Below are positions 1,562 through 24,630 of a stretch of DNA of 52,203 bases, in pieces. How positions within the stretch are numbered: the first letter of the stretch is position 1; every line of letters starts with the position of its first letter. A model generated the notes under the pieces. It was not told the DNA's origin and ran no database searches. It saw nothing but the letters and a program-made list of their open reading frames with translations. The DNA is from Acetobacteraceae bacterium (GTDB lineage Bacteria; Pseudomonadota; Alphaproteobacteria; Acetobacterales; Acetobacteraceae). Location: the NCBI GenBank assembly GCA_947474705.1, contig CANJJS010000027.1:1-52203 (forward strand), read 5' to 3'. The translations under genes were made by a program, and so were the position numbers.

Positions 1562-3204
1562 CTAAATCAGATCCACGGTGGTCAGATCCTGCTGCCAGCT
1601 TTGTGCCTGCACGAAGCCCTTGACCCGCGGCGACAGTCCCCGCGGGTTCAGGTCGTGCACGACGAAGCACCACAGCGCCCGATCCACGATCCGCGTGTGC
1701 AACTTCGCCAGCAGCGCGGTTTGCTCGGCCGGGTCGAAGGCGACGGCGACAGCTTCGCACAGCGCATCGGTCTCGGCGTCGCGGAAGTGGCCCCAGTTGA
1801 TACCCACCGGCGGCACCAGCTTCGATCCGGCGACCTGGATAATGGCGGTGGGATCGGCGGTGCCAAGGGAGTTGTTGAGCGCGTGGCCGCCTTTGTTTTC
1901 CGGGGCGGCGGCACCGGCACGGCGGCGGGCGCGCAACGCCTCCCAGTCCATGGCCTGGAGCGTCACCGCGAAACCGGCCTCTTCCAGCGATTCCTTGATC
2001 GCCTCGTTCATCGGTAGCGGCTGCATCTGGCCGGATCCGGAGGTCGAGATCAGGAACGTCGCCTTGCACGGATTTTTCGGCCCGTATCCGGCCTCGGCCA
2101 GCAGCTTCCGTGCCTCCGCCGGATCGTAGCGTACGTCGAACGAGGGTGTGCCGAACCAGGGATGGCCCGGCGGCACCATGCCTTTCGCTGGCATCGCGGT
2201 CTTGTTCAACAGGGTGCAAATGCCGTCGCGGTCGATCGCGAGGTTCATGGCCTTGCGCACGCGGACATCCCGGAACGGACTGTCGGGCAGGCACGACAGC
2301 AAATAGGGCCAGACATGCGGGTAAGGGTTCAGGATCACCTGCATCTTCGCCTGCCGCAATTGCGCGAGCGTGTCGGGTGCCGGTGCCTCGATCCAATCCA
2401 CCTGACCGTTTAACAAGGCGGCGACGCGGGTGACCGCGTCGGGCATGGGAATGATCGTCAACCGGTCGCAGCGCGGAACGCGGCGCGGGTCCCAGTAGGA
2501 CGCGTTCCGCGCGAATTCGACCCGTTCGCGCGGCACGACCTTCGTCACAACCCAGGGGCCGGTGCCGGACGGGCGGCTCGCGACCTTGGCCCAGTCGCGC
2601 GACATTTCCTCCCACCGCGCGGGCGAAGACATGAAGATGCTGGCCATATCGTAGGGCAGGTTCGCGTTCGGCGCCGGTGTTTCGATCTGAACGGTCATCG
2701 GATCGGCCACACTGTATCGCGCGATGCTCTTCGTCCATGTCGCGGCCTGCGTCGCCTGGGCCTGGTCGTATTGCGGCGAGTCGCGGCGCATCAGCTTGTC
2801 CAGGTTCCACACCACCGCATCGGCGGTGAAGGCCGAACCGTCATGGAACGTCACGCCGGGCCGCAGCCGGAAGGTCCAGACGGTCTTCTGGGCCGGATCC
2901 GCCGACCAGGTCAGCGCGAGCCCAGGGCGCAATGTGGCGGCGACGTCGGACCGCGACAGATCCCAGTTTACAAGAGCGTCGTAGGCGGTGACGCCCATGA
3001 ATTTACAAGAGCGTTGTAGGCGGTGACGCCCATGAAGCGGATGCCTTCGCCGCCCTGGCTCGCCTGGCCGGTGGTCAGGGGGATGTCGGCGGCGGTCATG
3101 GCCACGCGCAGGATTTTTTCCGCCGCGAAGGCCGGTACTGGCAGCGTGGCGGCCGCGCTGGCGAGTATCGCCTGGTGGATGTGACGGCGTCCGAGGTTGA
3201 TCAT
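1562..3204 (-). pseudogene. Family 5 ABC solute-binding protein, frameshifted by a tandem duplication
   Basis: This encodes a periplasmic peptide/opine-type binding protein (SBP family 5) in two frames. Frame one starts at 3204 with an N-terminal signal (MINLGRRHIHQAILASAAAT then PVPAFAA) and runs to GIRFMGVTAYNALVN. A 35-bp near-perfect tandem duplication at 2967-3036 then shifts the frame. The second frame resumes with the duplicated FMGVTAYDALVN and continues in register through WDLSRSDVAATLRPGL to the stop at 1562-1564. Deleting one copy restores a protein of about 535 residues with normal family features such as FHDGSAF and GTGPWV. GGAG lies upstream of the ATG. It sits next to the hydantoinase gene, so it was probably the cognate binding protein. 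Programmed frameshifting or assembly error cannot be excluded, but the two copies differ by one base. Confidence 0.85.
2967..3036. repeat. 35-bp tandem duplication inside the binding-protein gene
   Basis: Two adjacent 35-bp units, 2967-3001 and 3002-3036, are identical except for C at 2980 versus T at 3015. Because 35 is not a multiple of three, the second copy shifts the reading frame and causes the defect in the surrounding gene. Confidence 0.93.
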
Positions 3205-3768: not shown

Positions 3769-3972
3769 ATGACCGCTAAATCCACGGACGACGAGATTGT
3801 CCTGCTGGCCCGCCAGGCGGGTCTCGATTTGCCGCCGGAATATTTCCAGGAACTGGTGTCGGCCTATGCCAATGTTCGCGAGATGATCGACCGGATCCCC
3901 ACCGGCCGTCCTCGCGGCGACGAACCCGCGCATGTCTTCGCGCCCATGAAATTCCTGCCGGTGGGGCAATGA
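3769..3972 (+). CDS. AtzG-like (DUF4089) small amidase partner
   Basis: A 67-residue helical protein starting MTAKSTDDEIVLLARQAGLD and containing LPPEYFQELVSAYANV and a DEPAHVFAP tail. It resembles the DUF4089/AtzG family, small GatC-like subunits that bind and stabilise AtzE-type amidases (1-carboxybiuret hydrolase). Its TGA overlaps the ATG of the following amidase by four bases (ATGA at 3969-3972), which fits translational coupling and a stoichiometric complex. Family assignment is by pattern and context, not by search. The neighbourhood of hydantoinases and an ABC importer supports a role in amide or ureide breakdown. Confidence 0.7.
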   Translation: MTAKSTDDEIVLLARQAGLDLPPEYFQELVSAYANVREMIDRIPTGRPRGDEPAHVFAPMKFLPVGQ

Positions 3973-5375
3973 CCATGACGGAGTTTCCGACCATCGCCGA
4001 AGCCTCGAGGTTGATCGCGGCACGCGAGCTTTCGCCCGTCGAACTGACGGAAACCTGCCTGAGCCGGATTGAGGCCCAGGATGGGCTGCTGGACAGTTTC
4101 GTGACGCTGACGGCGGATCGGGCGCGCGCCGAGGCGAAGGCGGCCGAGGCGGCGATCGGGGCCGGCGGCCCGGTCAGCCCGATGCACGGCATCCCGTATT
4201 GCCTGAAGGACATTTACGATACCGCGGGGATCCGCACGACCGGCATGTCGCGCCTGCTGGCCGATAACGTTCCGGTCCGCGATTCGTTCTGCCAGGAAAA
4301 ACTGGCCGCCGCGGGCGGTGTGCTGTTGGGCAAGAACGCGACGTGGGAGTTCGCGCATGGCGGGCCGTCCTGGGATGTGTTGTTTCCACCCGCGCGCAAT
4401 CCTTGGAACCGCGATTACTCGCCCGCCGGGTCGTCGTCGGGCTCGGGCGCGGCGGTCGCGGCGGGGTTCGCGCCCGCGACGATGGGCACCGATACGGGTG
4501 GCTCGATCCGGGGACCGGCGGCTGCCTGCGGGATCGCGGGTTTGAAGCCGACCTATGGGCTGGTCAGCCGCCGGGGCGTGATTCCGAATTGCTTCAGCCA
4601 CGATCACGCGGGCCCTTTGGCCTGGACGTCGGAAGATGTCGCGATTCTGATGAACGTGGTCGCGGGTCATGACCCGGAAGATCCGGGATCGGCCAATGTC
4701 GAAATTCCCGATTACACGGCGGCGCTGACCGGCGATGTAAAGGGGCTGGTCATTGGCGTGCCGCAATCGTGGCTGGAAGACGAGGCGCCGCCGAAGCCGG
4801 AAACGAAAGCCGCGTTCGATGCCGCCCTGAAGGTTTTCGAGGGTCTGGGCTGTTCGATCCGGCCAGTGAAGTTACCGCCGTTACGACATTTCGACGATTC
4901 GAAAAAGACCATCGCGGTCGCGGAACTGTTCACCATCCACGGCGCGGATCTGCGTAAGCGTCCCGATCTGTTCGGCGCCAGCCTGCGCTACCGCATCATC
5001 GCCGGCGGTTTGGTGCGCGCGGAGGAATATATCCAGGCGATGCGCATGCGCACCGATCTGGCGCGCGCGATGCAGGCGGTGATGGCCACTGTCGATCTGC
5101 TGATGCTGCCGACACAGGAACCGGCGGGCAAGCTGGAACCGATCGATCCGTCCACCTTGTTCTCCCGCACATCCTTCACTACGCCGTTCAATGTTGGCGG
5201 CAACCCAGCCCTGTCGGTGTGCAGCGGTTTCGCGAACAGCGGATTGCCGTTCTCGTTGCAGATCGTTGGCAAATTGTTCGACGACGCGACCGTGCTGCGC
5301 GCGGGCGACGCGTACGAAAAAGCGACGCCCTGGCGGTCGAAGCGGCCGGTGTTGCTGGCGAAGGAGGCGGCATGA
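3969..5375 (+). CDS. Amidase-signature enzyme, AtzE/GatA-like
   Basis: A 468-residue amidase-signature hydrolase with the Ser-cisSer-Lys triad. K80 is in IPYCLKD, the serine-rich loop SPAGSSSGSG spans 151-160 with the cis-serine at about 156, and the probable nucleophile is S179 in TDTGGSIRGP. Length is normal for the family. It starts in the overlap with the AtzG-like gene (ATGA), and a second in-frame ATG follows two codons later. The small partner suggests an AtzE-type heteromer acting on a linear carboxyamide such as one released by ring opening, but a general amidase role is equally possible. Its own stop overlaps the next short frame. Confidence 0.87.
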   Translation: MTMTEFPTIAEASRLIAARELSPVELTETCLSRIEAQDGLLDSFVTLTADRARAEAKAAEAAIGAGGPVSPMHGIPYCLKDIYDTAGIRTTGMSRLLADNVPVRDSFCQEKLAAAGGVLLGKNATWEFAHGGPSWDVLFPPARNPWNRDYSPAGSSSGSGAAVAAGFAPATMGTDTGGSIRGPAAACGIAGLKPTYGLVSRRGVIPNCFSHDHAGPLAWTSEDVAILMNVVAGHDPEDPGSANVEIPDYTAALTGDVKGLVIGVPQSWLEDEAPPKPETKAAFDAALKVFEGLGCSIRPVKLPPLRHFDDSKKTIAVAELFTIHGADLRKRPDLFGASLRYRIIAGGLVRAEEYIQAMRMRTDLARAMQAVMATVDLLMLPTQEPAGKLEPIDPSTLFSRTSFTTPFNVGGNPALSVCSGFANSGLPFSLQIVGKLFDDATVLRAGDAYEKATPWRSKRPVLLAKEAA

Positions 5376-5545
5376 CGTTCGCCGTTCCTCCCATCGCGGC
5401 GCGCGGCGATACCCTGCTGGTCGATCGGGAGATGTGGATCTGGGGGTGCCATGCCTCCAACCCCCGCCCCTTGGGTCCGAAGGCGAACGGTCATGCGGAA
5501 GCGCGAAGCCGGCCGCGGGACCCGGCACAAGTTTCGGTGGGATAA
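5372..5545 (+). CDS. Short hypothetical frame between amidase and permease
   Basis: A 57-residue frame starting MTFAVPPIAARGDTLLVDRE whose ATG overlaps the amidase stop (ATGA) and whose stop lies 4 bp before the permease ATG. The operon-like spacing is the main support. There is no recognised domain, no membrane segment, and the C-terminal half is low-complexity (KANGHAEARSRPRD). It may be a decayed remnant rather than a functional gene. Confidence 0.32.
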   Translation: MTFAVPPIAARGDTLLVDREMWIWGCHASNPRPLGPKANGHAEARSRPRDPAQVSVG

Positions 5546-5549
5546 TCGG

Positions 5550-6503
5550 ATGCATTTCTATGTTCTCCGGCGTTTGCTTTATACGTTGCCGATCATTCTC
5601 GGCGTGACGATCGTTTGCTTTTCGTTCATCCACCTGGCACCGGGCGATCCGATCGGCGCGGTGCTGCCGGAAAACGCGTCGGCCCAGGTGGTGGCGGAGA
5701 TTAAGGCGGCGTATGGGTTCGACAGGCCGTTGCCGGTTCAGTATTTGAAATGGCTGGGCCGTGTGCTTGGTGGCGATTTCGGCACATCGATCATGACGCG
5801 GCGGACCGTGATCAGCGAGGTCGCGCCCGCCGTCGCGAACACGGCTTTGCTCGCCGTCACCGCGATCGGGCTGAGTTTCACGTTCGGCATCACGCTCGGC
5901 TTGCTGGCCGGATTTTCCAACCGCCGGGTCACCGACCGGTCCGTCACCGCTTTCGCCGTCGTCGGTATTTCCGTCCCGCATTACTGGCTGGGGATGGTGA
6001 TGGTGGTGATTTTCGCCGTCCTTCTGCACAGCCTGCCCGCGACCGGCATGGGGCCGGCGGGCACGAATATCCTGGCTTTCACGGGCGAGGATATCAGCCA
6101 CCTGATCCTGCCCGCGTTGACTCTGGCGACGATCCCGACGGGCGTGCTGGCGCGGTCGGTCCGCGCGATGGTCGCGGAAGTCAGACGGCAGGAATTCGTC
6201 CAAACGCTGAAAGGCAAAGGCCTGCGCCGGGGCCGCATTTTCCTCCATATCGTCAAGAACGCCGCGCCGCCGATCATGGCGATCATGGGGTTGCAGTTCG
6301 CGCAGCTTCTGGGCGGGTCAATCCTGGTGGAGACGGTGTTCGCCTGGCCGGGCACCGGGTTCTTGCTCAACGCCGCCATCGCGACCCGCGATCTGCCGCT
6401 GCTGCAAGGTACTGTCATCGTGCTGGCGATCTTCTTCGTGCTGACCAATCTGTTCGTCGATGTGCTGCAAACCGCCGTCGACCCCAGGGTCCGTCGCGCA
6501 TGA
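5550..6503 (+). CDS. ABC transporter permease, DppB/OppB type
   Basis: A 317-residue inner-membrane permease of the peptide/nickel importer class. It begins MHFYVLRRLLYTLPIILGVT, the standard DppB opening, followed by the periplasmic loop with HLAPGDPI and FGTSI and about six hydrophobic helices. The EAA-type loop appears near VRRQEFVQTLKGKGL. The start at 5550 was chosen because it matches the family N-terminus; the longer frame from 5451 adds unrelated sequence. Its stop overlaps the DppC-like gene (ATGA at 6500). It should pair with that gene and the two ATPases to import the substrate captured by a local family 5 binding protein. Confidence 0.93.
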   Translation: MHFYVLRRLLYTLPIILGVTIVCFSFIHLAPGDPIGAVLPENASAQVVAEIKAAYGFDRPLPVQYLKWLGRVLGGDFGTSIMTRRTVISEVAPAVANTALLAVTAIGLSFTFGITLGLLAGFSNRRVTDRSVTAFAVVGISVPHYWLGMVMVVIFAVLLHSLPATGMGPAGTNILAFTGEDISHLILPALTLATIPTGVLARSVRAMVAEVRRQEFVQTLKGKGLRRGRIFLHIVKNAAPPIMAIMGLQFAQLLGGSILVETVFAWPGTGFLLNAAIATRDLPLLQGTVIVLAIFFVLTNLFVDVLQTAVDPRVRRA

Positions 6504-7396
6504 GCGCCGCGGCCGAACGGATTTCACTCGCGCCCGCGGCCGTCAAACGGCGCCGCACCGGCGGATTCTGGCACCGCGCCGCCCGTCATGTCATGCGCGA
6601 CAAGGTGGCTCTGGTTTGCGCGATCGTTCTGCTGGCGATTGCGTTGTCGGCGATCTTCGCGCCCTGGATCGCGCCCGCCGATCCTTACAAAACCAGTATG
6701 TTACGCTGCCTGCTGCCGCCCTTGAGCCCGAAATATTTGCTCGGCACCGACGAACTGGGCCGCGACATGCTGACGCGGCTGCTTTATGGCGGACGCGTGT
6801 CGCTGTCGATGGGCATCGCCCCGGTCATCTTGGCGACGATCGTTGGCGGTGCTCTGGGTGTGACCGCCGGTTACTTCGGCCGCCACATCAACATGGCGAT
6901 CATGCGGGTCGTCAATGTTTTCTATGCTTTTCCCTCGGTCCTGCTGGCCGTCGCGATGGCGGGCGTGCTGGGGTCCGGCATCGTCAACAGCCTGATCTCC
7001 CTGACTCTGGTGTTCATTCCGCCCATCGCCCGCGTCGCGGAAAGCGTGACAACCCAGGTGCGCAATCAGGATTACGTGGAAGCCGCGCGCGCCACCGGTG
7101 CCTCCGCCGGCCGTATCATCGTCCAGCACGTGCTGGCCAACGTCATGGGGCCGATTGTGACTTATGCCTCCAGCCTCGTCAGTATCGCCATCATCATTTC
7201 CTCTGGCCTGTCCTTTCTGGGCCTGGGCGCGGCGCCACCGCTCGCCGACTGGGGCCTGATGTTGAATACATTACGGCAGGCGATCTATGTCGCGCCGGTC
7301 AACGCCGTCCTTCCGGGAGTCATGATCTTCGCCGCGTCGGTCAGCTTCAATCTGCTGAGCGACAGTCTTCGAAGCGCCATGGACGTCCGGGCATGA
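6500..7396 (+). CDS. ABC transporter permease, DppC/OppC type
   Basis: A 298-residue inner-membrane permease. The N-terminal cytosolic segment carries the RRRTGGFWHRAARHVMRDK lead into the first helix, followed by the DppC hallmark LGTDELGRDMLTRLLYGGR and the EAA loop VRNQDYVEAARATGAS. C-terminal helices end with NLLSDSLRSAMDVRA, typical of the subfamily. It overlaps both neighbours by ATGA. It forms the membrane channel with the preceding DppB-like protein. Confidence 0.93.
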   Translation: MSAAAERISLAPAAVKRRRTGGFWHRAARHVMRDKVALVCAIVLLAIALSAIFAPWIAPADPYKTSMLRCLLPPLSPKYLLGTDELGRDMLTRLLYGGRVSLSMGIAPVILATIVGGALGVTAGYFGRHINMAIMRVVNVFYAFPSVLLAVAMAGVLGSGIVNSLISLTLVFIPPIARVAESVTTQVRNQDYVEAARATGASAGRIIVQHVLANVMGPIVTYASSLVSIAIIISSGLSFLGLGAAPPLADWGLMLNTLRQAIYVAPVNAVLPGVMIFAASVSFNLLSDSLRSAMDVRA

Positions 7397-8397
7397 GCGC
7401 GGACCGGGGCGGACCGGCGCAGCCGATTCTGATCGTCAACGGTCTGCGCAAATATTTCCCTCTGCGCGGACCTCTGGGCACCATCGACGCCCATGTCCAG
7501 GCCGTCGACGGGATCGGCTTCGACGTTCGCAAGGGCGAAACGCTTGGCGTCGTGGGTGAGTCCGGCTGCGGCAAATCCACCACCGCCCGCCTGCTGATGC
7601 GCCTGATCGAACCCGACGCGGGCGAGGTCATCTTCGACGGCGACCCCATCGGCCACCGCGGTATCTCCATTCGCGAACTGCGCCGGAACATGCAGATGGT
7701 GTTCCAGGACAGCTATGCCTCGCTGAACCCCAGACACACCGCCACCGAGGAAATCGTCTTCGGCCTACGTGTCCACGGCATGGGTTCGAAACAGGCGCGC
7801 GAGCAGGCGCATGCGTCATTGCGGCTGGTCGGGCTGGAACCGGGCCAGTTCGGCGATCGCTACCCCCACGAAATGTCCGGGGGACAGCGGCAGCGCGTGA
7901 ACATCGCCCGCGGCATCGCCTTGAATCCGCGCGTGCTGATCCTGGATGAATCCGTTTCCGCGCTGGACAAATCGGTGCAGGCGCAGGTGCTGAACCTGCT
8001 GGCCGATCTGAAGGACCGGCTGAACCTGACTTATGTTTTTATCTCGCACGATCTGAACGTCGTGCATCACGTGTCCGATCGCGTGCTGGTGATGTATTTG
8101 GGGAAAGTGGTGGAAATTGGCCCGGTCGAGCGGATCTACGGCGATGCCGCGCACCCCTATACGCGCGCTTTGTTCGCCTCCCGCCTGTCGATGGACCCCG
8201 CGCTGCGGGTCGGTGCCGCGCCGCTGTCGGGGGACCCGCCCAATCCGGTCCGCCCGCCCTCCGGCTGCCGGTTCCGCACTCGCTGTTCGCTGGCAACCCA
8301 GGCCTGCGCCGCGTCGGAACCCCTGCTGCGCGAGATCGCCCCCGGCCACCAGGCCGCCTGCCATGCCCTGACGGGGGAGATGGCCGATGCCGCGTGA
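7393..8397 (+). CDS. ABC transporter ATP-binding protein, DppF/OppF type
   Basis: A 334-residue ATPase. Walker A is GESGCGKST, the Q-loop MVFQDSYASLNPR, the signature MSGGQRQR, Walker B VLILDES, and the H-loop ISHD. The C-terminal oligopeptide-type extension has a cysteine pattern (RFRTRCSLATQACA) that in relatives can bind an Fe-S cluster. The start at 7393 overlaps the permease stop by ATGA, and the sequence from there (PILIVNGLRKYFPLRG) is the normal DppF opening. Paired with the next ATPase it powers the importer. Confidence 0.93.
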   Translation: MSADRGGPAQPILIVNGLRKYFPLRGPLGTIDAHVQAVDGIGFDVRKGETLGVVGESGCGKSTTARLLMRLIEPDAGEVIFDGDPIGHRGISIRELRRNMQMVFQDSYASLNPRHTATEEIVFGLRVHGMGSKQAREQAHASLRLVGLEPGQFGDRYPHEMSGGQRQRVNIARGIALNPRVLILDESVSALDKSVQAQVLNLLADLKDRLNLTYVFISHDLNVVHHVSDRVLVMYLGKVVEIGPVERIYGDAAHPYTRALFASRLSMDPALRVGAAPLSGDPPNPVRPPSGCRFRTRCSLATQACAASEPLLREIAPGHQAACHALTGEMADAA

Positions 8398-9406
8398 TCC
8401 CTTGGTCGAGGTCCGCGACCTGTCTGTTCGTTTCGTGAACCGCGACATCGATCTGACCGTGGTGGATGACGTCTCCTTCCGCCTCGACGCCGGGGAAGTG
8501 TTGTGTTTTCTGGGTGAATCCGGCTCCGGTAAGACCGTTACGATGCGCGCGCTGCTGCGTCTGCTGCCACCGCACGCGCGGATCGGCGGATCGATCCGCC
8601 TGGCGGGCCACGACGTTACCGCGATGTCGGAACGGCAGTTGGAAGCCGTGCGCGGCCCGGTCGGCGCGATGATCTTCCAGGAACCGATGACCGCGCTCGA
8701 CCCGGTCTTCACCATCGGCACCCAGATCGCCGAAACGATCGTCGCACACGAGGCCGTGTCCTGGGCTCAGGCCCGCGCGCGGGCTCTGGAACTGTTGGAA
8801 ATGGTGCAGATTCCGTCGGCGGCGCGGCGTCTCGACGCCTACCCTCACGAACTGTCCGGCGGACTGCGTCAGCGCGCGATGATCGCCCTGGCCTTGTCCT
8901 GCAAACCCGCGCTGCTGCTGGCCGACGAACCGACCACCGCGCTGGACGCCACCGTGCAAATTCAGATACTTTTGTTAATTCGGTCCTTGCAAAAAGAACT
9001 GGGCATGGCGACGATTTTCGTCACCCATGATATCGGCGTGGCGTGCGAGGTCGCCGACCGTATCGCCGTGATGTACGCTGGCCGCTTCGTCGAAACCGGT
9101 CCGGTCGCGGACATCGTCGCGTCCCCGGCCCATCCCTATACCGCGGGGCTGCTGCGCTCGACCGTCAGCGCCTCCACCCGGGGCGAGCGCCTCGCCTCGA
9201 TCCCCGGCGGCCCACCAGACCTGACCGATATGCCGCCTGGCTGCGCCTTCGGCCCCCGTTGCGTATCCCATGGCGCCGCCTGCGACGCGGGCGTTCCCCC
9301 GTTGATCCCGTTCGCCGGCGGCCGGGCATCTCGCTGCCTGCTCACCAAGGAGGTCGTTCACGCCGGGCAAGGTGGTGGAAGCGTCAGTAGGGAAGCCCAC
9401 ATGTAA
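8387..9406 (+). CDS. ABC transporter ATP-binding protein, DppD/OppD type
   Basis: A 339-residue ATPase with Walker A GESGSGKTV, Q-loop MIFQEPMTALDP, signature LSGGLRQR, Walker B LLLADEPTTALD and H-loop VTHD. The C-terminal extension again carries clustered cysteines (GCAFGPRCVSHGAAC). It overlaps the preceding ATPase by 11 bp. The order DppB-DppC-DppF-DppD is a common variant of peptide/opine importers. The last about 20 residues (GQGGGSVSREAHM) are not family-typical. Confidence 0.92.
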   Translation: MPRDPLVEVRDLSVRFVNRDIDLTVVDDVSFRLDAGEVLCFLGESGSGKTVTMRALLRLLPPHARIGGSIRLAGHDVTAMSERQLEAVRGPVGAMIFQEPMTALDPVFTIGTQIAETIVAHEAVSWAQARARALELLEMVQIPSAARRLDAYPHELSGGLRQRAMIALALSCKPALLLADEPTTALDATVQIQILLLIRSLQKELGMATIFVTHDIGVACEVADRIAVMYAGRFVETGPVADIVASPAHPYTAGLLRSTVSASTRGERLASIPGGPPDLTDMPPGCAFGPRCVSHGAACDAGVPPLIPFAGGRASRCLLTKEVVHAGQGGGSVSREAHM

Positions 9407-9523
9407 AGACGGAGGCGCGGCGTCGTCGCCGTGAGACCGATTATGCGCGTGCAAATCTCCGGCGCATGGTATCGTTCCATGCTGTTCCTTGGAGGGACAG
9501 CGTTTAAACAGGAGGCCAGGGAA

Positions 9524-9673
9524 ATGGCGGACCGGACCTTTCATCCGACCTTGCCCGCTTCAATGCGGGACGGCCCCAGAACCTGGCGGCTCGCGACGCG
9601 CGGGTCGGGCCGAGTAAACGGCTTCGAACGGGGTCTTCTGGCACCGGAACGATTCGCGATGGCCGGCTCGTGA
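9524..9673 (+). CDS. Putative 49-aa leader-type protein upstream of the G3E GTPase
   Basis: An arginine-rich 49-residue frame (MADRTFHPTLPASMRDG...) with a strong GGAGG eight bases before its ATG. Its TGA overlaps the GTG start of the next gene (GTGA at 9670-9673), which suggests that translating it delivers ribosomes to the GTPase. No domain recognised. It could be a leader peptide or an annotation artefact; the ribosome-binding site and coupling are the only evidence. Confidence 0.4.
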   Translation: MADRTFHPTLPASMRDGPRTWRLATRGSGRVNGFERGLLAPERFAMAGS

Positions 9674-10695
9674 TCGAAACCGTCTCCGCGGGAAGAACTG
9701 AGCTTGGCGGCGAAGTTTCGCCGGCGCCGTTACCGATTTCCGTGCTGACGGGATTTCTGGGCTCCGGCAAGACGACCTTTCTCGGACGAGTGCTGACGCG
9801 GCCGGGCATGGCCGACACGGCGGTGGTGATCAACGAATTCGGTGCCGTGGGTCTGGATCATCTGCTGATCGAGGCGGCAGACCAGGAAATTCTGCAATTG
9901 CCCAATGGCTGTGTGTGCTGCGCGGTCCGGCAGGACCTGGCGGAGACATTGTACGGATTGCTGCGCCGGCGCGCTCGCGGCGACATAACCCGGTTCAGCC
10001 GAATCGTGCTGGAAACCAGCGGCCTGGCGGAGCCGGCGCCCATTCTTTACACGCTGTCGGCGGATGCGTTCCTGGAACATTCCCTGCGCGTCGATACCGT
10101 TGTCACCGCGATCGACGCGATGGCGGGCGCCGCGACGCTCGCGCGATATCCCGAGGCGATGGCGCAGGCGGCGGGCGCGGATCGTTTGTTGCTGACCAAA
10201 ACCGATCTTGCCACGCCATCGGCCGATTTCCTGGCGCGTCTGGCGGATCTGAACCCGCTGGCCGAGTTGATCGACAGCGCGAGGGCCGGCCCGGTCGAGG
10301 TCCTGTTCGGTGGCACCGTCTCCGTCCTGCCCAGAAAGCAGCGGTTTCTGGCGGAGGCGGTGCACGCGCACGGAATCTCGGCGCATGTCATGACCTTGCG
10401 TCACTCCATGACGCGCCTGCAATTCGCGATGGCGCTCGGCGGTCTGGCGCGCGAACATGGCGAGGACCTGTTGCGGGTCAAAGGCGTCGTTGCCTTCGCC
10501 GATCGCGAGGGCGGGCCGGCGGCGGTGCACGCCGTGCAACACACGATGTATCCGCCGCACTGGCTGGATCGCTGGCCCTCGGCCGACGAAACCAGCCGCC
10601 TGGTGTTCATCGTCCGGAACATCGCGCCCGCGGTGCTGTTGGATTGTTTCGCCGCGGCGGACCCGGTGTTCGCCGCCAGACAAGGAGAAAAATGA
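9670..10695 (+). CDS. G3E-family GTPase, CobW/COG0523 metallochaperone-like
   Basis: A 341-residue P-loop GTPase. Walker A is GSGKTT at residues 31-36, the family metal-binding motif GCVCC is at 80-84, the switch-like INEFG at 54-58, and the base-recognition motif appears as TKTD at 176-179. A CobW C-terminal domain follows from about residue 230. G3E proteins deliver or safeguard Zn, Co or Ni. The start is GTG, chosen because it overlaps the preceding short frame and no upstream ATG is available in frame. It is coupled to the dihydropyrimidinase-like gene, a metal enzyme, so a role in loading that enzyme is inferred. Confidence 0.87.
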   Translation: MIETVSAGRTELGGEVSPAPLPISVLTGFLGSGKTTFLGRVLTRPGMADTAVVINEFGAVGLDHLLIEAADQEILQLPNGCVCCAVRQDLAETLYGLLRRRARGDITRFSRIVLETSGLAEPAPILYTLSADAFLEHSLRVDTVVTAIDAMAGAATLARYPEAMAQAAGADRLLLTKTDLATPSADFLARLADLNPLAELIDSARAGPVEVLFGGTVSVLPRKQRFLAEAVHAHGISAHVMTLRHSMTRLQFAMALGGLAREHGEDLLRVKGVVAFADREGGPAAVHAVQHTMYPPHWLDRWPSADETSRLVFIVRNIAPAVLLDCFAAADPVFAARQGEK

Positions 10696-12119
10696 TGTTG
10701 GACCTGATCGTTTCGGGCGGCTTGTGCGTGCTGCCGAGTGGGACAGCGGCGGTCGATATCGGGGTGGCGGGAGACAAGATCGCGATGATTGGCGCGCCAG
10801 GCTCGCTTGGTGCCGCCGCGCGGGTCGTCGATGCGACCGGCAAGGTCGTGATTCCCGGCGGGATCGATCCGCATATTCATTGCGGCATGCCCGTGCGGTT
10901 TCCCGGCCAGAAGGAGCCCACCTACACCGATCCGCCCGCGCAGGTCAGCAAGGCGGCGTTGTATGGCGGTACCACGACGTTGCTGGATTTCGTGCAATGT
11001 ACGCACGATCGCTCGATCGAAAAAGCGATCGCGGACACGGACTCCACCTGGAAGAACGCGGTGTATTGCGATTACGGTTTTCATCTGACCTTGATGGGAC
11101 AGGTGCCCAACGGCCAGTTCGGCGAACTGGCGGAGGCGATGCAGCAGGGACATGCCTCGATCAAGATTTTCACGACCGACATTCGTCCCGGCAATATCGG
11201 CCGCATGGTGCCGCATGGCCACATCTGGGAAGCGTTGAAAGTCGTCGCCGCGAACAACGGCATCGCCGCGATCCATGCCGAAGATAACGACATCGTGATG
11301 TTCATGTATGAAAAGCTGATGCGGGAAAATCGCGTCGGCATCGAGTACATGGCCGAGGTGCACAATACTTTGTCCGAGGAATTGTCGTTCAACCGCGTGA
11401 TCCGTCTGGCGGAAAATGTCGAGGGCGCGGCGTTGTACATGGTGCATGTGTCCGCGGCGACCGGCGTGGCGGCCCTTGCCGCGTCGCGCGCCAAGGGGTT
11501 CCCGATGTATGGTGAAACCTTGCATCAATATCTGATGTACAACGCCGAAGACTATAAGAAACCCAATTCGCAGATGTATCACACCTACCCCTCGCTGAAA
11601 TATCCCGAAGATCAGAAGAAACTCTGGGAAGCGACCAACCATGGCGCGATTCAGGTCATCGCGACCGACGAGTTGTGCTGTCCGCTGCGGGTGAAATTGC
11701 AGGGCAGCCGTATCGACGACACGACCGGCGGCAATTCCGGCGTCGAGCCTCGGGTCGGGCTGATGTATACGCAGATGGTGACGAACCGGGGATATTCGCT
11801 GGAACATTTCGCCGGTATGATTTCCACGAACGCCGCGAAGATCATGGGGCTTTATCCGCGTAAGGGCGCTCTGGCCGCCGGGTCCGATGCCGATATCGTC
11901 GTGCTGGAAACCGGCTCGCGAAAGACCATCCGGGCGGAGGACCTGCACGAAACCGATTATACGCCGTGGGAAGGCCATGTGGTCACCGCCTGGCCGGCGG
12001 TGACGGTGATGCGCGGCAAGGTCGTGGTCGAGAACGGCGCGTTCTTCGGGGACCTGAAGCAAGGCCAGTTCCTGCCGCGCAAAGTCGCCGACGAAATCAG
12101 GAGCCGGCCCGCCGTGTAA
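10695..12119 (+). CDS. Dihydropyrimidinase-like amidohydrolase
   Basis: A 474-residue cyclic amidase with H60 and H62 in DPHIH, carboxylated lysine candidate K157 in ASIKIF, H194 in AIHAED, H251 in MVHVSA and D325 in ATDELC. Most dihydropyrimidinases have TDHCP at the last motif; here it reads TDELCCP, so the substrate pocket may differ. AGGAG lies 7 bases before the ATG at 10695; an adjacent ATG at 10692 overlaps the GTPase stop and is an alternative. It is only distantly similar to the enzyme at 4-1452, so the island carries two different ring-opening enzymes. Confidence 0.9.
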   Translation: MLDLIVSGGLCVLPSGTAAVDIGVAGDKIAMIGAPGSLGAAARVVDATGKVVIPGGIDPHIHCGMPVRFPGQKEPTYTDPPAQVSKAALYGGTTTLLDFVQCTHDRSIEKAIADTDSTWKNAVYCDYGFHLTLMGQVPNGQFGELAEAMQQGHASIKIFTTDIRPGNIGRMVPHGHIWEALKVVAANNGIAAIHAEDNDIVMFMYEKLMRENRVGIEYMAEVHNTLSEELSFNRVIRLAENVEGAALYMVHVSAATGVAALAASRAKGFPMYGETLHQYLMYNAEDYKKPNSQMYHTYPSLKYPEDQKKLWEATNHGAIQVIATDELCCPLRVKLQGSRIDDTTGGNSGVEPRVGLMYTQMVTNRGYSLEHFAGMISTNAAKIMGLYPRKGALAAGSDADIVVLETGSRKTIRAEDLHETDYTPWEGHVVTAWPAVTVMRGKVVVENGAFFGDLKQGQFLPRKVADEIRSRPAV

Positions 12120-12228
12120 CACCGGTCGCTGGAATGGTTGACTTTCTTGCTCGGCACGTCGCGTGCGATCCGAGCGAAAATGACGATAAAAGCACGATCG
12201 AACAACACATGATTTTGAGGATTGGCGA

Positions 12229-13233
12229 ATGACCATGACATGGCGGCCACGTATTCTTCTCGCGATCGGTCCGGGGACCCTGCCCAGTCAGGGCATGGAT
12301 CGGATGGATTTCACCGGTTATAATGTCCGGCTTAGTGGGAAGCCGCCGTTGACGGGCCGCGAGATGGTCGCGGCGCTGCCGGAAATCGAGTCCATTGCTG
12401 AAATCGTCTTCGACGATGGGGGCTCGCGTCCGCAGGCGACTCATGAAGATATTCGCAAGCTCGCGCGGTTTCTGGATGCCGAGGCGCGGCGGGACGATAT
12501 CGATGGCATCGTGTGGGTTCAGGGAACCAACACGCTGGAGGAGACGGCGTTCTTTCTCAATCTCACCGTGCGGTCCGAAAAGCCGTTGGTGGTCGTGGGC
12601 GCGCAACGGCCGTTTACCGCGATGAGCACGGACGCTCACCTTAATCTGGTAAATGCGATCCGGGTCGCGGCCTGCCCTGATGCCGCCGGTATCGGCGTCG
12701 TGACCGTGACAAACAGCGAAATCATCGCGGCGCGGGATGTGACGAAAACCGCGACTTATCAGGTGCAGACGTTTCGGGGACGCGATCTTGGGGTGCTTGG
12801 TTACGCCGATCCCGATCGTGTCGTCATTTATCACGCGCCACGGCGCCGTCACACGACGCGGTCCGAATTCGACATCCAGGTTATCGATGCCTTGCCGATG
12901 GTCGAGGTCCTTTATCCCCACACCGGCGCGAACCCGGGACTGGCGCGGGCGGCGGTGGATCTGGGGGCGAAAGGGCTGGTGGTCGCGGGGATTGGCGCGG
13001 GGGCTCTGGGTGTGTTGACCGAGGCGGTGAAGACGCTCGTTGCAAATGGCGTCGTCATTGTGCGTTCCGCCCGTGTCGGCGAGGGCCGCGTTCTCGTTGG
13101 CGGCAACAATCATGAAGCGGGGACGGTCGCGGCTGATAACCTTAATCCGCAGAAGGCCGCGATGCTGCTGGCGCTGGGTTTGACGCGCACGGACGATCCC
13201 GTGGAACTGCAACGAATCTTCGATGAATATTGA
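12229..13233 (+). CDS. Asparaginase/glutaminase-family protein, divergent active site
   Basis: A 334-residue member of the bacterial asparaginase fold. The first active-site motif, normally TGGTI, reads AIGPGTLPS (12-20); the second, normally HGTDT, reads QGTNT at 98-102; the lysine motif ARDVTKT (168-174, K173) is intact, as is the C-terminal domain. The loss of the TGGTI form and the Asp-to-Asn change in the second motif suggest altered substrate or chemistry. It stands 110 bp after the dihydropyrimidinase-like gene, with GAGG before the ATG, and precedes an amidase, so a cyclic or acyclic amide from the same pathway is a plausible substrate. Confidence 0.8.
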   Translation: MTMTWRPRILLAIGPGTLPSQGMDRMDFTGYNVRLSGKPPLTGREMVAALPEIESIAEIVFDDGGSRPQATHEDIRKLARFLDAEARRDDIDGIVWVQGTNTLEETAFFLNLTVRSEKPLVVVGAQRPFTAMSTDAHLNLVNAIRVAACPDAAGIGVVTVTNSEIIAARDVTKTATYQVQTFRGRDLGVLGYADPDRVVIYHAPRRRHTTRSEFDIQVIDALPMVEVLYPHTGANPGLARAAVDLGAKGLVVAGIGAGALGVLTEAVKTLVANGVVIVRSARVGEGRVLVGGNNHEAGTVAADNLNPQKAAMLLALGLTRTDDPVELQRIFDEY

Positions 13234-13308
13234 TCGCGCGGATATTTGCCGTAACCCCAGGCAAATACGCCACCACCGTCCGCGGCTTACAGGAGGCAAG
13301 AGATCGTC

Positions 13309-14631
13309 ATGGAAACCGAACCCGCGCGTATGACGGCGGCCGAGGCATCGGCGTTGATCCAGGCGAAAAAAATGTCGTGCGAGGAACTGGTCGGCTCCTG
13401 CCTCGCGCGGGTGGGGGCGCGCGATCCGATCGTGAAGGCGTGGCTGTCGATGGATCCCGGCCATGTCATCCGCCGGGCGCGGGAACTGGACAAGCTGCCG
13501 TCGAAGGGGCCGCTGCATGGCATTCCCTGGGGTGTGAAAGATGTGATCGACACCGCCGATTATCCGACGACGCAGAACTCCCCCATTTACGACGGGTTGA
13601 AGATGGGACGCGATGCCGCGGCGGTCGCTGTCGTGCGCGGTGCCGGTGCCTTGATCATGGGCAAGACCGATACCGTCGAATTCGCGTCCAGCGGCCGGAA
13701 GGCGCTGACGACCAACCCCTATAACGCCGCCCATACGCCGGGCGGCTCGTCATCCGGATCGGGCGCGGCCGTCGGGGATTTTCAGGTTCAGTACGCTTTC
13801 GGCACCCAGACCGGCGGGTCGCACATCCGGCCCGCTTCGTTCAATGGCATTTATGGCATGAAACCAAGCTGGAACCGGGTCAGCCGGGAAGGCCTACGGA
13901 TGGCCTCGCCGACGCTCGATACCATCGGTTGGTACGGGCGGAGCGTCGAGGATCTCGCGCTGGTGGCGGAGGTGTTCCGGATCGGACGCGATGCCGCCCC
14001 GGTCTCGGTCAAAGGTCTTCGGGTCGGGCTGTGCCGGAGTCCGGTTTGGCCGCGGATCGAACCGGGCGGAGAACTGGCGCTGACGACGGCGGCCAAACGT
14101 CTGGCGGACGCGGGCGCGATCGTGGAGGATCTGGACCTGCCGGACGCGTTCAATGGCCTGGATGAAGCGCACGCGACCATTGTCCAGCACGAAGGCGGGG
14201 TGTCGTTTCTTCCCGAGTATATTAACGCGGGCCCGATGTTGGCCGCGGACCTGAGGGCCCGGGTGGAGAACACCGCGCAAATCACGGCGGAACGGCTGCT
14301 GGCGGCGTATGCGCTGGCGGATCGGTGCCGGCCCATGTTGGATTCGCTGTTCGGTCCGGATCTGGACGTGATTCTGACTCCGAGTTCGCGCGGCGAGGCG
14401 CCCGTGGGCCTGCACACGACGGGCGAGGATGTGTTCAACCGGATGTGGACGCTTCTGCACGCACCGAACATTGGCATCCCGGCGTGCTTCGCGCCGTCCG
14501 GCCTGCCGGTTGGGGTGACGTTGATCGCCGGACGGCTGACGGACGCGCGATTGCTCGCGATCGCGGCGGCCTGCGCGCCGGCGATCGATCAGGAGGTGGA
14601 GGCGCGCAAGCGGCGGTTGTGGCCAGTGTAG
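13309..14631 (+). CDS. Amidase-signature enzyme (second paralogue)
   Basis: A 440-residue amidase-signature hydrolase, distinct from the one at 3969. K77 is in IPWGVKD, the serine-rich loop TPGGSSSGSG runs 143-152, and the nucleophile is probably S171 in TQTGGSHIRPAS. AGGAGG lies 13 bases before the ATG. It has no AtzG-like partner. It ends the rightward gene series and faces the leftward binding-protein gene across about 390 bp. An aryl or aliphatic acylamidase role is possible; substrate unknown. Confidence 0.87.
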   Translation: METEPARMTAAEASALIQAKKMSCEELVGSCLARVGARDPIVKAWLSMDPGHVIRRARELDKLPSKGPLHGIPWGVKDVIDTADYPTTQNSPIYDGLKMGRDAAAVAVVRGAGALIMGKTDTVEFASSGRKALTTNPYNAAHTPGGSSSGSGAAVGDFQVQYAFGTQTGGSHIRPASFNGIYGMKPSWNRVSREGLRMASPTLDTIGWYGRSVEDLALVAEVFRIGRDAAPVSVKGLRVGLCRSPVWPRIEPGGELALTTAAKRLADAGAIVEDLDLPDAFNGLDEAHATIVQHEGGVSFLPEYINAGPMLAADLRARVENTAQITAERLLAAYALADRCRPMLDSLFGPDLDVILTPSSRGEAPVGLHTTGEDVFNRMWTLLHAPNIGIPACFAPSGLPVGVTLIAGRLTDARLLAIAAACAPAIDQEVEARKRRLWPV

Positions 14632-15024: not shown

Positions 15025-16605
15025 TTACGACCAGGAAAGATTCCATGGGAAGGGCGCCGTGCCCTCCAACAGGCCGGTGAGGCCTTTCCGGTGGGATGTC
15101 AGAATGAAGAACCGGCCCAACACAACGGTCGGCGCCATCTCAAGCCCGTGAACATGCATGGCCCTGACAATCTTCGACCGTTCTTCGTCCGTCGCGACCG
15201 AGGTCCATTGCTCGTTCAATTGCTCGATCTTGTCGTCGGTGTACCAGCCGGCCCACCCCTTGGCGCCGAGCCCCCGCAGAATCGGGCTGATCGCGGGGTT
15301 CACGAAGGACGAGCCCAGCCACCAATTATGGAAAATCGACCAGCCGCCCTTGTCCGGCGCTTCGGCCTTGGTGCGGCGCTGCGCCAGCGTGTTCCAGTCC
15401 ATCTCCTGTAGCTCGACGTTCATGCCGAGTTGCTTCAGGTAGTCGAAGGTCACCTGGCCGAACGGCCCGATCGTCGGGATATCGGCGGGGTTCAGAATGA
15501 CCACCTTTTCGCCCTTGTATCCGGCCGCGGCCAGCGCTTTTTTCGCGGCCGCGACATCGCCGGTCATGCCGTCGCGGCCGAGTTCCTCGCCGTACGGCGT
15601 GCCGCAGGGGAACAGCGCCTTGCAGGCCCGGTAAATCGAGGAATCGTTGCCGGTCACCGCGCTCATGTAATCGTCCTGGTTCATGCCCAGACGCACCGCG
15701 CGGCGAATGGCGGCATTATTGAACGGCGGGTGCAGGTGATTGAACCGCATCGTGCCGAAAAAACCCACGGTGTTGAAATTCGTCACCACCAGATCCGGGT
15801 TTTTCCGCAGCATCGGCAACAGATCGGGCTGCACCTGCTCCCACCAATCCACTTCGCCCTTGGACAGGGCGGAGGCCGCGGTCGAACTGTCCGGAATGAT
15901 CTTCCACTCGTAACGCTCGATCTTCGCGTGCTTGCCGCCCGAGGCCCAACTTGGCTGTTCCTGCCGCGGCACGTATTTGTCGAATTTCTGGTAGGCGCCG
16001 CTGCTGCCCGCGACGAATTCGTTCTTCAGGAAGCGATATGGGCCCGAGCCGATCATTTCGGTGTTGGGCTTGGTCAGATCGGTGTTCGCCAGCCGTTCCG
16101 GCATCACCACCGGCAGCATGCCGTTCGGTTTCGCCAGAGTGTCCAGCAGCAACGGGAACGGCCGTTTCAGTTTGATCTCGATGGTGCGGTCGTCTCGCGC
16201 GCCGAATGCCTCGACGACGGCGCCCAGGGCCTGGCCGTAGACGTCGCGGGCGGCCCACCGGCGGAGGCTGGCGGCGGCGTCGCGGGCCAGCACCTTCTCG
16301 CCATCGTGGAATGTCAGCCCGTCGCGCAGCCGGATGGACCAGGTGCGCCCGTCCTCGGACACCGAGGCGCTTTCGGCCATCTGCGGGCGCGGGGTCTGGC
16401 CCGCGTCGAGCGCGAACAACGTGTCGAACACATAATACCCATGTGTGATCGACACCTGGGTTGTGGTCCAGGACGGATCCAGCACCGACAGATCGGCCGT
16501 CGGCACATAGCGCAACAGCTTGTTGTCGCGGTTCGCCGCGATCGCGTGACGCGACGGCAAGACCGCCGCCGCCGCTCCGGCTTTCAAAATATCTCTACGC
16601 TTCAT
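15025..16605 (-). CDS. Family 5 ABC solute-binding protein
   Basis: A 526-residue periplasmic binding protein of the peptide/opine class. The N-terminus MKRRDILKAGAAAAVLPS is a Tat-like signal (paired arginines, hydrophobic stretch). SBP_bac_5 features include FHDGEKVLARD and GSGPYRFL. The ATG at 16605 is the natural start. It is intact, unlike the frameshifted paralogue at 1562-3204, and may supply the neighbouring Dpp-type transporter. It is transcribed away from the membrane-protein gene at 16987. Confidence 0.92.
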   Translation of the reverse strand: MKRRDILKAGAAAAVLPSRHAIAANRDNKLLRYVPTADLSVLDPSWTTTQVSITHGYYVFDTLFALDAGQTPRPQMAESASVSEDGRTWSIRLRDGLTFHDGEKVLARDAAASLRRWAARDVYGQALGAVVEAFGARDDRTIEIKLKRPFPLLLDTLAKPNGMLPVVMPERLANTDLTKPNTEMIGSGPYRFLKNEFVAGSSGAYQKFDKYVPRQEQPSWASGGKHAKIERYEWKIIPDSSTAASALSKGEVDWWEQVQPDLLPMLRKNPDLVVTNFNTVGFFGTMRFNHLHPPFNNAAIRRAVRLGMNQDDYMSAVTGNDSSIYRACKALFPCGTPYGEELGRDGMTGDVAAAKKALAAAGYKGEKVVILNPADIPTIGPFGQVTFDYLKQLGMNVELQEMDWNTLAQRRTKAEAPDKGGWSIFHNWWLGSSFVNPAISPILRGLGAKGWAGWYTDDKIEQLNEQWTSVATDEERSKIVRAMHVHGLEMAPTVVLGRFFILTSHRKGLTGLLEGTAPFPWNLSWS

Positions 16606-21713: not shown

Positions 21714-23036
21714 ATGATCGACGAAACCCACGACCCCGCGCGCGCCAGTTGGGTGGCCTCCGCCAACGGCCACGCGTTGTTTCCCATCCAGAACCTTCCC
21801 CTTGGCGTGTTCAGCCCGCCAGGCGGCGGCGCGCGCGGCGGAATCGCGATAGGCGAGAAAATTTTCGACATTTCCGCCGCGCTGGAAGCGGGTTTGTTCT
21901 CCGGTGCCGCGCGCGAGGCCGCCGAAGCCGCGAGCGGCCGCACCCTGAACCCGCTGCTGGAAGCCGGGCCCGCCGCGCGCCAGGCCCTGCGCCGGCGCGT
22001 GAGCGATCTGCTGGACGCCAAAGGCGCGGATGCGGGAAAAGCGAAGGACCTGGCGAATCGCCTGCTGCACGACGCGGCTTCGTGCCAGCTCCATTTGCCC
22101 GCCCGCGTCGGCGACTTCACCGACTTCTTCGCCGGCATCCACCACGCCCACACCGCCGGCACGATCAGCCGTCCCGAAAACCCGCTGATGCCAAACTATA
22201 AATATGTGCCGGTCGCCTATCACAGCCGAGCTTCCTCCGTCGCCGTGTCGGGCGGCACCGTCCGCCGTCCCAACGGCCAACGCAAACCGCCGCAACAAGC
22301 CGCGCCGGACTTCGGCCCCTGCCGCAACCTCGACTACGAACTCGAACTCGGTGTCTGGGTCGGAACCGGCAACGACCTTGGCAGCCCCATCCCGATCGCC
22401 GAGGCCGGCCGTCACGTCGCCGGATTCTGCCTGCTGAACGACTGGTCCGCGCGCGATATCCAAAGCTGGGAATCCCAGCCGCTCGGCCCGTTCCTGGCCA
22501 AAAGCCTGTCCACCTTCGTTTCGCCCTGGATCGTCACGGCCGAAGCCCTGGCGCCCTTCCGCATGGCGCAACCATCCCGTCCCGAGGGCGATCCCGCGCC
22601 GCTGCCGCACCTGAACGACGCCGCCGATCAGGCCAACGGCTGCTATGACATCGACTTCCAGGTGCTGATCTCGACCCCGAAACTCCGCGCCGCCGGCGCC
22701 GAACCGCATCTCCTGTCGCGGTCCAACGCCAGCATGCTCTATTGGACCGTGGCGCAAATGGTCGCGCACCACACCTCCAACGGCTGCAACCTCCAGCCTG
22801 GCGACCTGTTCGGCTCTGGCACCGTCTCCGGTCTTGGCACCGGCGCGGCCGGCTGCCTGTTGGAAATGACCCGCGGCGGCAGCAATCCCGTCACCCTCCA
22901 CAACGGCGAAACCCGCACCTACCTCCAGGACGGCGACGAAATCATCTTCCACGGCATCGCCAGCAGCCCCGGCCACGTGCCCATCGGCTTCGGCGAATGC
23001 CGGGGCACCGTGACGGAGGCGTTGCCGCTGGGGTGA
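21714..23036 (+). CDS. fahA: Fumarylacetoacetase
   Basis: A 440-residue FAH, the last enzyme of homogentisate/tyrosine degradation, giving fumarate and acetoacetate. The N-terminal SH3-like domain is followed by the catalytic domain. Visible active-site features are TDFFAGIHHAHTAG (base His and metal Asp), YELELGVWVG (metal Glu pair), LLNDWSARDIQSWE (metal Asp) and LGPFLAKSLSTF (Lys). GGGAGG precedes the ATG. No homogentisate dioxygenase or maleylacetoacetate isomerase is adjacent, although GST-fold genes occur at 31-33 kb. Confidence 0.95.
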   Translation: MIDETHDPARASWVASANGHALFPIQNLPLGVFSPPGGGARGGIAIGEKIFDISAALEAGLFSGAAREAAEAASGRTLNPLLEAGPAARQALRRRVSDLLDAKGADAGKAKDLANRLLHDAASCQLHLPARVGDFTDFFAGIHHAHTAGTISRPENPLMPNYKYVPVAYHSRASSVAVSGGTVRRPNGQRKPPQQAAPDFGPCRNLDYELELGVWVGTGNDLGSPIPIAEAGRHVAGFCLLNDWSARDIQSWESQPLGPFLAKSLSTFVSPWIVTAEALAPFRMAQPSRPEGDPAPLPHLNDAADQANGCYDIDFQVLISTPKLRAAGAEPHLLSRSNASMLYWTVAQMVAHHTSNGCNLQPGDLFGSGTVSGLGTGAAGCLLEMTRGGSNPVTLHNGETRTYLQDGDEIIFHGIASSPGHVPIGFGECRGTVTEALPLG

Positions 23037-23050
23037 GAGGTCTCGACTTG

Positions 23051-23325
23051 TGGAGACACCGGGGCTTTGCCCCAGACCCCACGAGGGCTTCGCCCTTCGA
23101 ACCCACCAAGGGCTCGCCCTTGGAAACCCGGGGTTTGGGCCGGTTGTTGAGGGAGGGCCTTTCACGGATGTCGATACTGCCTCGCATGGCCCTCCCTCAA
23201 CAACCGGCCAAAATCGATCGCGGTCCAGGGGACGTTCCCCTGGTGGGGTTCGAAGGGGCAAAGCCCCTCGCGGGGCACGGGGCAGCGCCCCGCCGTCCCG
23301 CGAACCGCGGCCTCTCCCCCCCGGT
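23051..23325. repeat. Long GC-rich palindromic intergenic element, copy A
   Basis: The region 23037-23379 between two genes is filled by a long inverted structure. A perfect 22-bp inverted repeat (23138-23159 and 23188-23209) forms the core, and the outer flanks are mutually inverted (GGGGCTTTGCCCCAGACCCC at 23061-23080 against the GGGGCAAAGCCCC and GGGGCAGCGCCCC segments at 23251-23292). Related sequence occurs at 43524-43762, so this is a dispersed family of REP- or MITE-like elements. It could also serve as a terminator or RNA structure. Confidence 0.75.
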
Positions 23326-23379
23326 GACACCGCCACCCGTTCCCGTGCATCATCGTCGCGGCGATGCGGGAGGCCGGGG

Positions 23380-24609: not shown

Positions 24610-24630
24610 ACCAGATCGAAGGAAACGAAC

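Follow-up and report, generated by a model that had tools for sequence, protein, structure and literature searches.

A modular locus of amidases, an Opp-type importer and a G3E GTPase–amidohydrolase pair in an Acetobacteraceae genome

Do an importer, several amidases, a cyclic amidohydrolase and a G3E GTPase encoded side by side in an Acetobacteraceae bacterium serve a single pathway, and what kind of compound would that pathway take apart? The genes lie on contig CANJJS010000027.1 (C27) of the draft genome GCA_947474705.1 (5.48 Mb, 205 contigs), and the stretch analysed here, which we call the window, comprises 52,203 nucleotides of that contig. An earlier note on this DNA had seen in them a candidate pathway for the import and ring opening of a cyclic amide or ureide. 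Our analysis upholds this view in part: the genes fit import and C–N hydrolysis, and one enzyme, HYD2, has the fold and metal ligands of dihydropyrimidinases, but elsewhere the genes form separate modules, and the locus is a patchwork of such modules, not one conserved pathway cluster. Since the genes co-occur in this modular fashion, we treat a single integrated pathway as a proposal, and our preferred reading, to which we give a probability of about 0.45, is that of a modular locus for scavenging nitrogen from a cyclic ureide or imide, or from an amide of similar kind, in which the G3E GTPase would load the metal of HYD2. Throughout, labels with L denote loci, those with G the genomes compared, and those with C contigs of the window's own genome.

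Ten genes on the plus strand span positions 3769-14631; SBP1 and HYD1 are divergent from them upstream, and SBP2 is convergent downstream:

4-1452, minus: HYD1, ordinary dihydropyrimidinase/D-hydantoinase type (TIGR02033, 489.5 bits; cut-off 393.25)
~1562-3204, minus: SBP1, SBP_bac_5-type periplasmic binding protein (PF00496, 264 bits for the piece 1562-2992)
3769-3972, plus: GatC/AtzG-like small subunit, 67 aa (homologues in orthologous loci; weak AtzG/GatC matches)
3969-5375, plus: amidase-signature enzyme, AtzE/GatA-like (PF01425, 335 bits)
5550-6503 (start possibly 5493), plus: DppB-type permease (PF00528, NikB/DppB-type models)
6500-7396, plus: DppC-type permease (PF00528, PF12911)
7393-8397, plus: Opp/Dpp ATPase, DppF type (PF00005, PF08352; NF008453, 353 bits)
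8387-9406, plus: Opp/Dpp ATPase, DppD type (PF00005, PF08352; NF007010, 326 bits)
9670-10695, plus: G3E (COG0523/CobW-type) GTPase (PF02492, 143 bits; PF07683, 61 bits)
10692-12119, plus: HYD2, divergent cyclic amidohydrolase of the dihydropyrimidinase fold, with TDELCC (profile score, metal ligands)
12229-13233, plus: ASN, asparaginase-like, GTNT replacing GTDT (TIGR00520, 267.5 bits, below 314.3)
13309-14631, plus: AMI2, malonamidase-E2-like amidase (best PDB match 1ock, 218 bits)
15025-16605, minus: SBP2, second SBP_bac_5 binding protein, possibly accessory (PF00496, 223 bits)

The packing with overlapping stops and starts that the earlier note described is borne out: the nine junctions measure -4, +117, -4, -4, -11, +263, -4, +109 and +75 bp, five of them being overlaps (the second becomes 174 bp if the DppB-type gene starts at 5550 and not at 5493), and a gap of 263 bp parts the DppD-type ATPase from the G3E gene. 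The inventory given in that note fared unevenly. The G3E GTPase and the asparaginase-like enzyme are present, the latter below the family cut-off; of two hydantoinase-type enzymes placed between 3769 and 13233, only HYD2 lies there; and the second amidase exists, but beyond that end, as AMI2. What had been called a full Dpp-type importer has its permeases and both ATPases, whereas SBP1 is encoded divergently and its frame is broken at about 2964-3037 by a near-duplicate (38 bp, three mismatches, 35-bp offset), which is either a real mutation or an assembly error.

HYD2 and the G3E GTPase beside it

HYD2 is about 30% identical to dihydropyrimidinases and D-hydantoinases (1yny, 5e5c) and reaches 303.6 bits with TIGR02033, below the cut-off of 393.25. 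In an alignment of 59 HYD2 sequences the ligands of a binuclear metal centre are nearly invariant (H61 in 58, H63 in 57, and K158, H195, H252 and D326 in all 59), the roles of HxH, Lys, His, His and Asp being taken from the accessible part of PMC8860565. What sets HYD2 apart from the dihydropyrimidinases is the invariant signature TDExCC, the motifs HTYPSLK and ExLHQY, and the region of the substrate-binding Tyr155. In the aligned column all four HYD1-type sequences have Tyr while HYD2 has Arg (40), Asn (14) or Gln (3 of 59), next to a five-residue insertion with a single Tyr there among the 59 sequences, so that by alignment HYD2 appears to lack an equivalent of this residue.

The G3E protein has a P-loop (GFLGSGKT), a CVCC motif and a CobW_C domain, which place it in the G3E/COG0523 family. 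To our knowledge, no known dihydropyrimidinase or hydantoinase depends on a G3E GTPase of its own for its metal, and the open-access literature searched yielded no report that pairs a G3E protein with an enzyme of the hydantoinase fold. P-loop, CxCC, CobW_C and a gene next to a metalloenzyme are shared with the COG0523 metallochaperones (CobW, the nitrile hydratase activator, ZNG1/ZigA); the window protein differs from these in its hydantoinase-fold partner and in scoring below the NCBIfam equivalog cut-offs.

The two genes travel together. Of the HYD2 loci, 44 extend 2.5 kb or more on each side; 30 of these have a G3E gene no further than 2.5 kb from HYD2, on its strand in every case (30/30). 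When 1.5-kb flanks were compared, some of them cut by contig ends, G3E was present in five of eight HYD2 loci versus none of 30 HYD1-type loci. Across the 34 loci in which the two starts are less than 4 kb apart (window included), pairwise identities of G3E and HYD2 correlate closely (Mantel r 0.97, 0 of 999 permutations), a value inflated by the shared ancestry of these loci. CxCC is present in all 34, and the G3E gene precedes HYD2 in 23 and follows it in 11; it is a frequent companion of this one enzyme subfamily, with no fixed side. This linkage and co-divergence suggest that the G3E protein delivers or checks the metal of HYD2, and since many G3E/COG0523 GTPases have no known client, HYD2 would be a named candidate. 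The general idea has a precedent: the accessible part of PMC2770081 assigns COG0523 proteins to metal-centre assembly and lists paralogues of dihydroorotase (PyrC), a cyclic amidohydrolase, among Zur-regulated genes, so that a tie between zinc supply and cyclic amidohydrolases is not new, although the term 'amidohydrolase' does not occur in that part of the text. That HYD2 forms a separate TDExCC subfamily with an undescribed ring substrate and a metal, perhaps other than zinc, loaded by its own G3E protein is a tentative idea, which we consider somewhat improbable.

A single clade of linked G3E proteins was not recovered (four label changes versus a mean of 4.9 after shuffling, with long branches). 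The window G3E groups with that of L009 (support 96/97), and a paralogue on C140 falls inside the clade linked to another HYD2 type (100/98), that of C43, where the same genome encodes a second HYD2, 58% identical to that of the window. Seven sampled congeners carry this type (57-59%) and none carries the window type (80-88%), which is why the G3E-HYD2 cassette may have been acquired in the window lineage. Next to the second HYD2 type lies a conserved ORF of about 93 aa (cluster c11; L044:11422-11703 and seven other loci), in several loci between HYD2 and G3E; the representative scanned had no Pfam match.

We also sought the substrate of HYD2 in its neighbours, using 26 de-duplicated loci (HYD2 less than 86% identical, at least nine called genes) and omitting genes of the HYD2 and G3E clusters and those under 90 or over 800 aa. 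With 134 genes tallied within three positions and 150 of the 156 at six or more positions, this attempt failed: no consistent second enzyme emerged in the 26 loci. Transporters were common both near and far, and HyuA/HyuB-type genes (cluster c4 in 14 HYD2 loci, c6 in 12, one representative of each identified) appeared in the far tally but are missing from the 25 families listed for the near genes. In L018 (19742-20806) a relative of the AtzD family lies about 8 kb downstream of G3E-HYD2, past HyuA/HyuB-type and ABC transporter genes.

Amidases and the asparaginase-like enzyme

The first two genes had been taken for an AtzG/AtzE-like pair, and a small ORF followed by an amidase is indeed there. 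The amidase is, however, closer to GatA (296 bits) than to AtzE (255 bits), both below cut-off (for AtzE, TIGR02715, 255.5 against 425.75), and its PDB matches run from GatA through biuret hydrolase (6c62_A, 209 bits) down to peptide amidase. Its 67-aa partner had no Pfam match at E 0.5, PF13318 (AtzG-like) included (the small ORF of L171 scores 39.2 bits). A profile of 11 such sequences, window included, placed AtzG (6c62_C) second of seven PDB matches at E 0.085, and Foldseek with a model of pLDDT 75 returned a best E of 1.2 and none below 1; of its 13 rows, the first seven were AtzG and six small GatCAB/transamidosome chains (E above 1; 83-99 aa), which we took as GatC by size, the rows naming no chain.

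AMI2 finds malonamidase E2 chains as its best PDB matches, and K62, S131, S155 and R158, counted along the alignment with 1ock, are identical. By this alignment AMI2 keeps the Ser-cisSer-Lys triad and Arg158 of malonamidase E2; it is divergent overall and its activity is a prediction. Paralogous clusters of AMI2, AtzE-type and AtzG-like genes occur in L164 (C138 of the same genome), L166 and L167; inside that of L166 sits an FmdA/AmdA formamidase-family gene, of which L167 has an 86% relative.

As far as the accessible part of PMC6219798 goes, atzG-atzE(-atzH) clusters with ABC transporters and amidases have already been published from Proteobacteria, and this half of the locus is therefore a known kind of context. 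Those clusters share with the window the overlapping GatC/AtzG-like and amidase genes, the ABC transporter and further amidases; the window pair differs in scoring below the AtzE cut-offs and in having no adjacent atzH, while G3E-HYD2 and the altered ASN belong, in this comparison, to the window only. The earlier note recognised no standard hydantoin, pyrimidine, allantoin or cyanurate operon in this set. A cyanuric acid operon (atzDGEHF) we rejected, as AtzD and AtzH are not beside AtzGE (AtzF was not searched for as such). Two of the enzymes which that note listed as missing, cyanuric acid hydrolase and urease, have family matches elsewhere in the genome: those of the AtzD and AtzH families lie on C99, C133 and C80 and none on C27, and urease too is encoded. 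The sole AtzD/barbiturase-family ORF (C99:12771-13847, L176:9772-10848) matches model positions 3-301 of 358, and it ends in 60-85 residues of an AMI2 C-terminus (66% identity to that of the window, and 80% in DNA over 198 bp), which looks like the fusion of two adjacent genes by a deletion. AtzD beside AMI2 was rejected as a general rule.

ASN resembles type II L-asparaginases (TIGR00520) over its full length and retains the equivalents of Thr12, Thr89 and Lys162. It differs from them, besides its score, at the positions of Asp90 (Asn in the window enzyme and four orthologues), Gln59 (Arg or His) and Glu283 (a column without Glu in the window enzyme). Presumably Gln59, Asp90 and Glu283 contact the amino group of asparagine, the place of Glu283 in the sequence being likewise our assumption, and their loss would point to a substrate without a free alpha-amino group. 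According to the accessible part of PMC6667453, Asp90 and Lys162 are invariant in all L-asparaginases, with Asp90 critical for substrate binding; by this standard ASN keeps the Lys and not the Asp. Five HYD2-linked asparaginase-like sequences have Ala at the Asp90 position, as GTAT (GTAS in L067), but so do those of C153 and C198 in the same genome and the background relatives in L109, L110 and L112 (L106, L107, L108 and L111 gave no sequence by the motif rule and were dropped). We therefore rejected the change as a hallmark of HYD2 linkage, Ala being found in the rows read regardless of HYD2 nearby. Automated annotation may mislabel both the ASN clade and the HYD2 subfamily, whose pocket, judged by sequence, is unlike that of ordinary dihydropyrimidinases. 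In L087 (C153) and L009 the asparaginase-like gene, 83% identical between the two, adjoins a TauD-type dioxygenase gene (by Pfam in L009; the C153 gene is 34% identical to it), and HYD2-G3E was seen only in L009.

One pathway or neighbouring modules

The earlier note named as grounds for refutation that the genes might never co-occur elsewhere; they do co-occur, though as separate modules. We searched 250 genomes of the order, five of which, besides that of the window, hold an orthologue of the first amidase (69-86% identity; stretches of 17.8-19.5 kb examined). An AtzG-like ORF lies just upstream of it in all five (48-70%), an SBP1 relative (63-66%) adjoins it in four and AMI2 (60-62%) in two, while one locus has a close Opp system (80-90%) and a second has a distant one (34-47%). 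Of the seven places with an AMI2 relative at 60% identity or more, six also hold an AtzE-type amidase no further than about 10 kb off. G129 combines ASN (66%), an SBP1-type protein (47%), an isochorismatase-family hydrolase, Dpp (53-66%) and an AtzE-type amidase (52%), and G062 combines AMI2 (77%), two SBP1-type proteins (45-46%), a 74% relative of the G129 hydrolase, Dpp (49-64%) and an AtzE-type amidase (50%). What recurs, which we call module A, is a variable core of binding protein, GatC/AtzG-like subunit and amidase, joined variously by Opp, AMI2-type and ASN genes.

In our preferred reading, SBP1, SBP2 or both would work with DppBCDF to import a small compound bearing an amide or ureide, and HYD2, with its binuclear metal centre provided or checked by the G3E protein, would cut one ring C–N bond of a cyclic ureide or imide. 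The AtzG/AtzE-like complex, ASN and AMI2 may then hydrolyse the open-chain carbamoyl or half-amide acids to carboxylates and ammonia. The recurrent association is module A (SBP1, AtzG/E-like, Opp, AMI2, ASN), and G3E-HYD2, as module B, a two-gene cassette that probably joined it in this lineage.

Several observations weigh against this reading. HYD2, G3E and ASN occur in none of the five orthologous amidase stretches, and the draft genome of the nearest congener (G222) has AtzE, ASN, AMI2, HYD1 and a 58%-type HYD2 spread over five contigs. Amidases are not enriched near HYD2 (2 of 134 genes near versus 4 of 150 far), and with 27 amidase-family matches in the genome an amidase neighbour comes cheap. 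The correlation is inflated, as noted, and 14 of the 44 loci have no G3E gene close to HYD2, nor do those of three congeners (L078-L080). Three of the four ASN orthologues (78-86%) lie outside such a setting, by a SUF operon, by ABC and GMC genes, and in a 5-kb contig that also encodes an amidase and an M20 peptidase. The asparaginase-like protein of L034 (GTAT), which is linked to HYD2, exceeds the type II cut-off (326 versus 314), so that the group may have an altered but related activity. Finally, a DppB-type permease match was found in only three of 64 HYD2 loci, many of them short (L010, L040, L069), and besides the window only L069, from Rhodopila, was seen with parts of both modules (SBP1 60%, DppBCDF 76-78%, AtzE 74%, HYD2 63%, G3E 58%). 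In L069 a gene for an isochorismatase-family hydrolase separates HYD2 from the Opp genes, which run on the other strand. G3E lies 4.7 kb away from HYD2, beyond a further ABC transporter that could serve HYD2 in place of Opp.

A rival reading is juxtaposition, in which linear amides would be scavenged by module A and an unrelated ring compound opened by module B, with no pathway in common, a case we think possible though hardly probable. The modules are apart in nearly every other locus examined, as in Plastoroseomonas arctica, where a 21-kb stretch has G3E-HYD2 and not module A, the neighbours of HYD2-G3E are mixed (TRAP, TctC, several ABC types, TauD, SDR and housekeeping genes), and the 263-bp gap falls between the two modules; but L069 holds parts of both in another genus, and an asparaginase-like gene lies within three genes of HYD2 in three of the 26 de-duplicated loci and within 3 kb in five of 64, its family being absent from the 25 families listed far from HYD2 (a list ending at two members). 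That the locus simply imports and deamidates short peptides or peptide amides, HYD2 and G3E having no part in this, strikes us as unlikely. All transporter parts fit dipeptide, oligopeptide or nickel-type Opp families and peptide amidase is among the matches of the AtzE-like enzyme, yet the ten genes include no peptidase, AMI2 is closest to malonamidase E2, and GatA and biuret hydrolase rank ahead of peptide amidase.

Still less probable, in our estimate, is a pathway for malonyl-ureides (barbiturate-like compounds), in which HYD2 or an AtzD-family enzyme would open the ring and AMI2, as a ureidomalonase-type enzyme, would free malonate. The malonamidase E2 residues of AMI2, the AMI2-like end of the C99 ORF, the urease of the genome and a malonyl-CoA decarboxylase gene adjoining HYD2 in a few loci (cluster c24, four loci) would suit it; the C99 join, however, may reflect an assembly artefact or the fossil of a deletion. 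An AtzD-family match within 20 kb was seen for none of the 16 listed matches to AMI2, and no AMI2 or AtzE match lay within 1.5 kb of the AtzD-family genes in the 30 loci examined (of 51 matches).

Flanking genes

No Rfam family reached its gathering threshold in the window, and a tRNA scan found nothing. We dropped HYD1 as a firm member of the locus, since it is a common enzyme with relatives at E ≤ 1e-150 in 99 of the 250 genomes; in five HYD1 loci of other genomes (L169-L173) relatives of SBP1 and the ATPases were only distant (30-32%), and its role here is uncertain. In one of these, L171 (4052-10924, congener G113), genes for an amidase, an AtzG-like protein, an amidase, an AtzH-like protein, an amidohydrolase, the HYD1 orthologue and a DUF3830 protein are consecutive, which places a dihydropyrimidinase-type gene beside an atzG-atzE-atzH cluster. 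SBP2 has a 39% relative one gene upstream of G3E-HYD2 in L020. Past SBP2 follow an ORF without a family and genes of the carboxymuconolactone-decarboxylase, glyoxalase-like, SDR, fumarylacetoacetase, amidohydrolase and enolase-superfamily types, which we see no reason to count as part of the locus; among them, genes for a fumarylacetoacetase, a cytosine-deaminase-like amidohydrolase and a mandelate-racemase-family protein are consecutive at 21714-25728.

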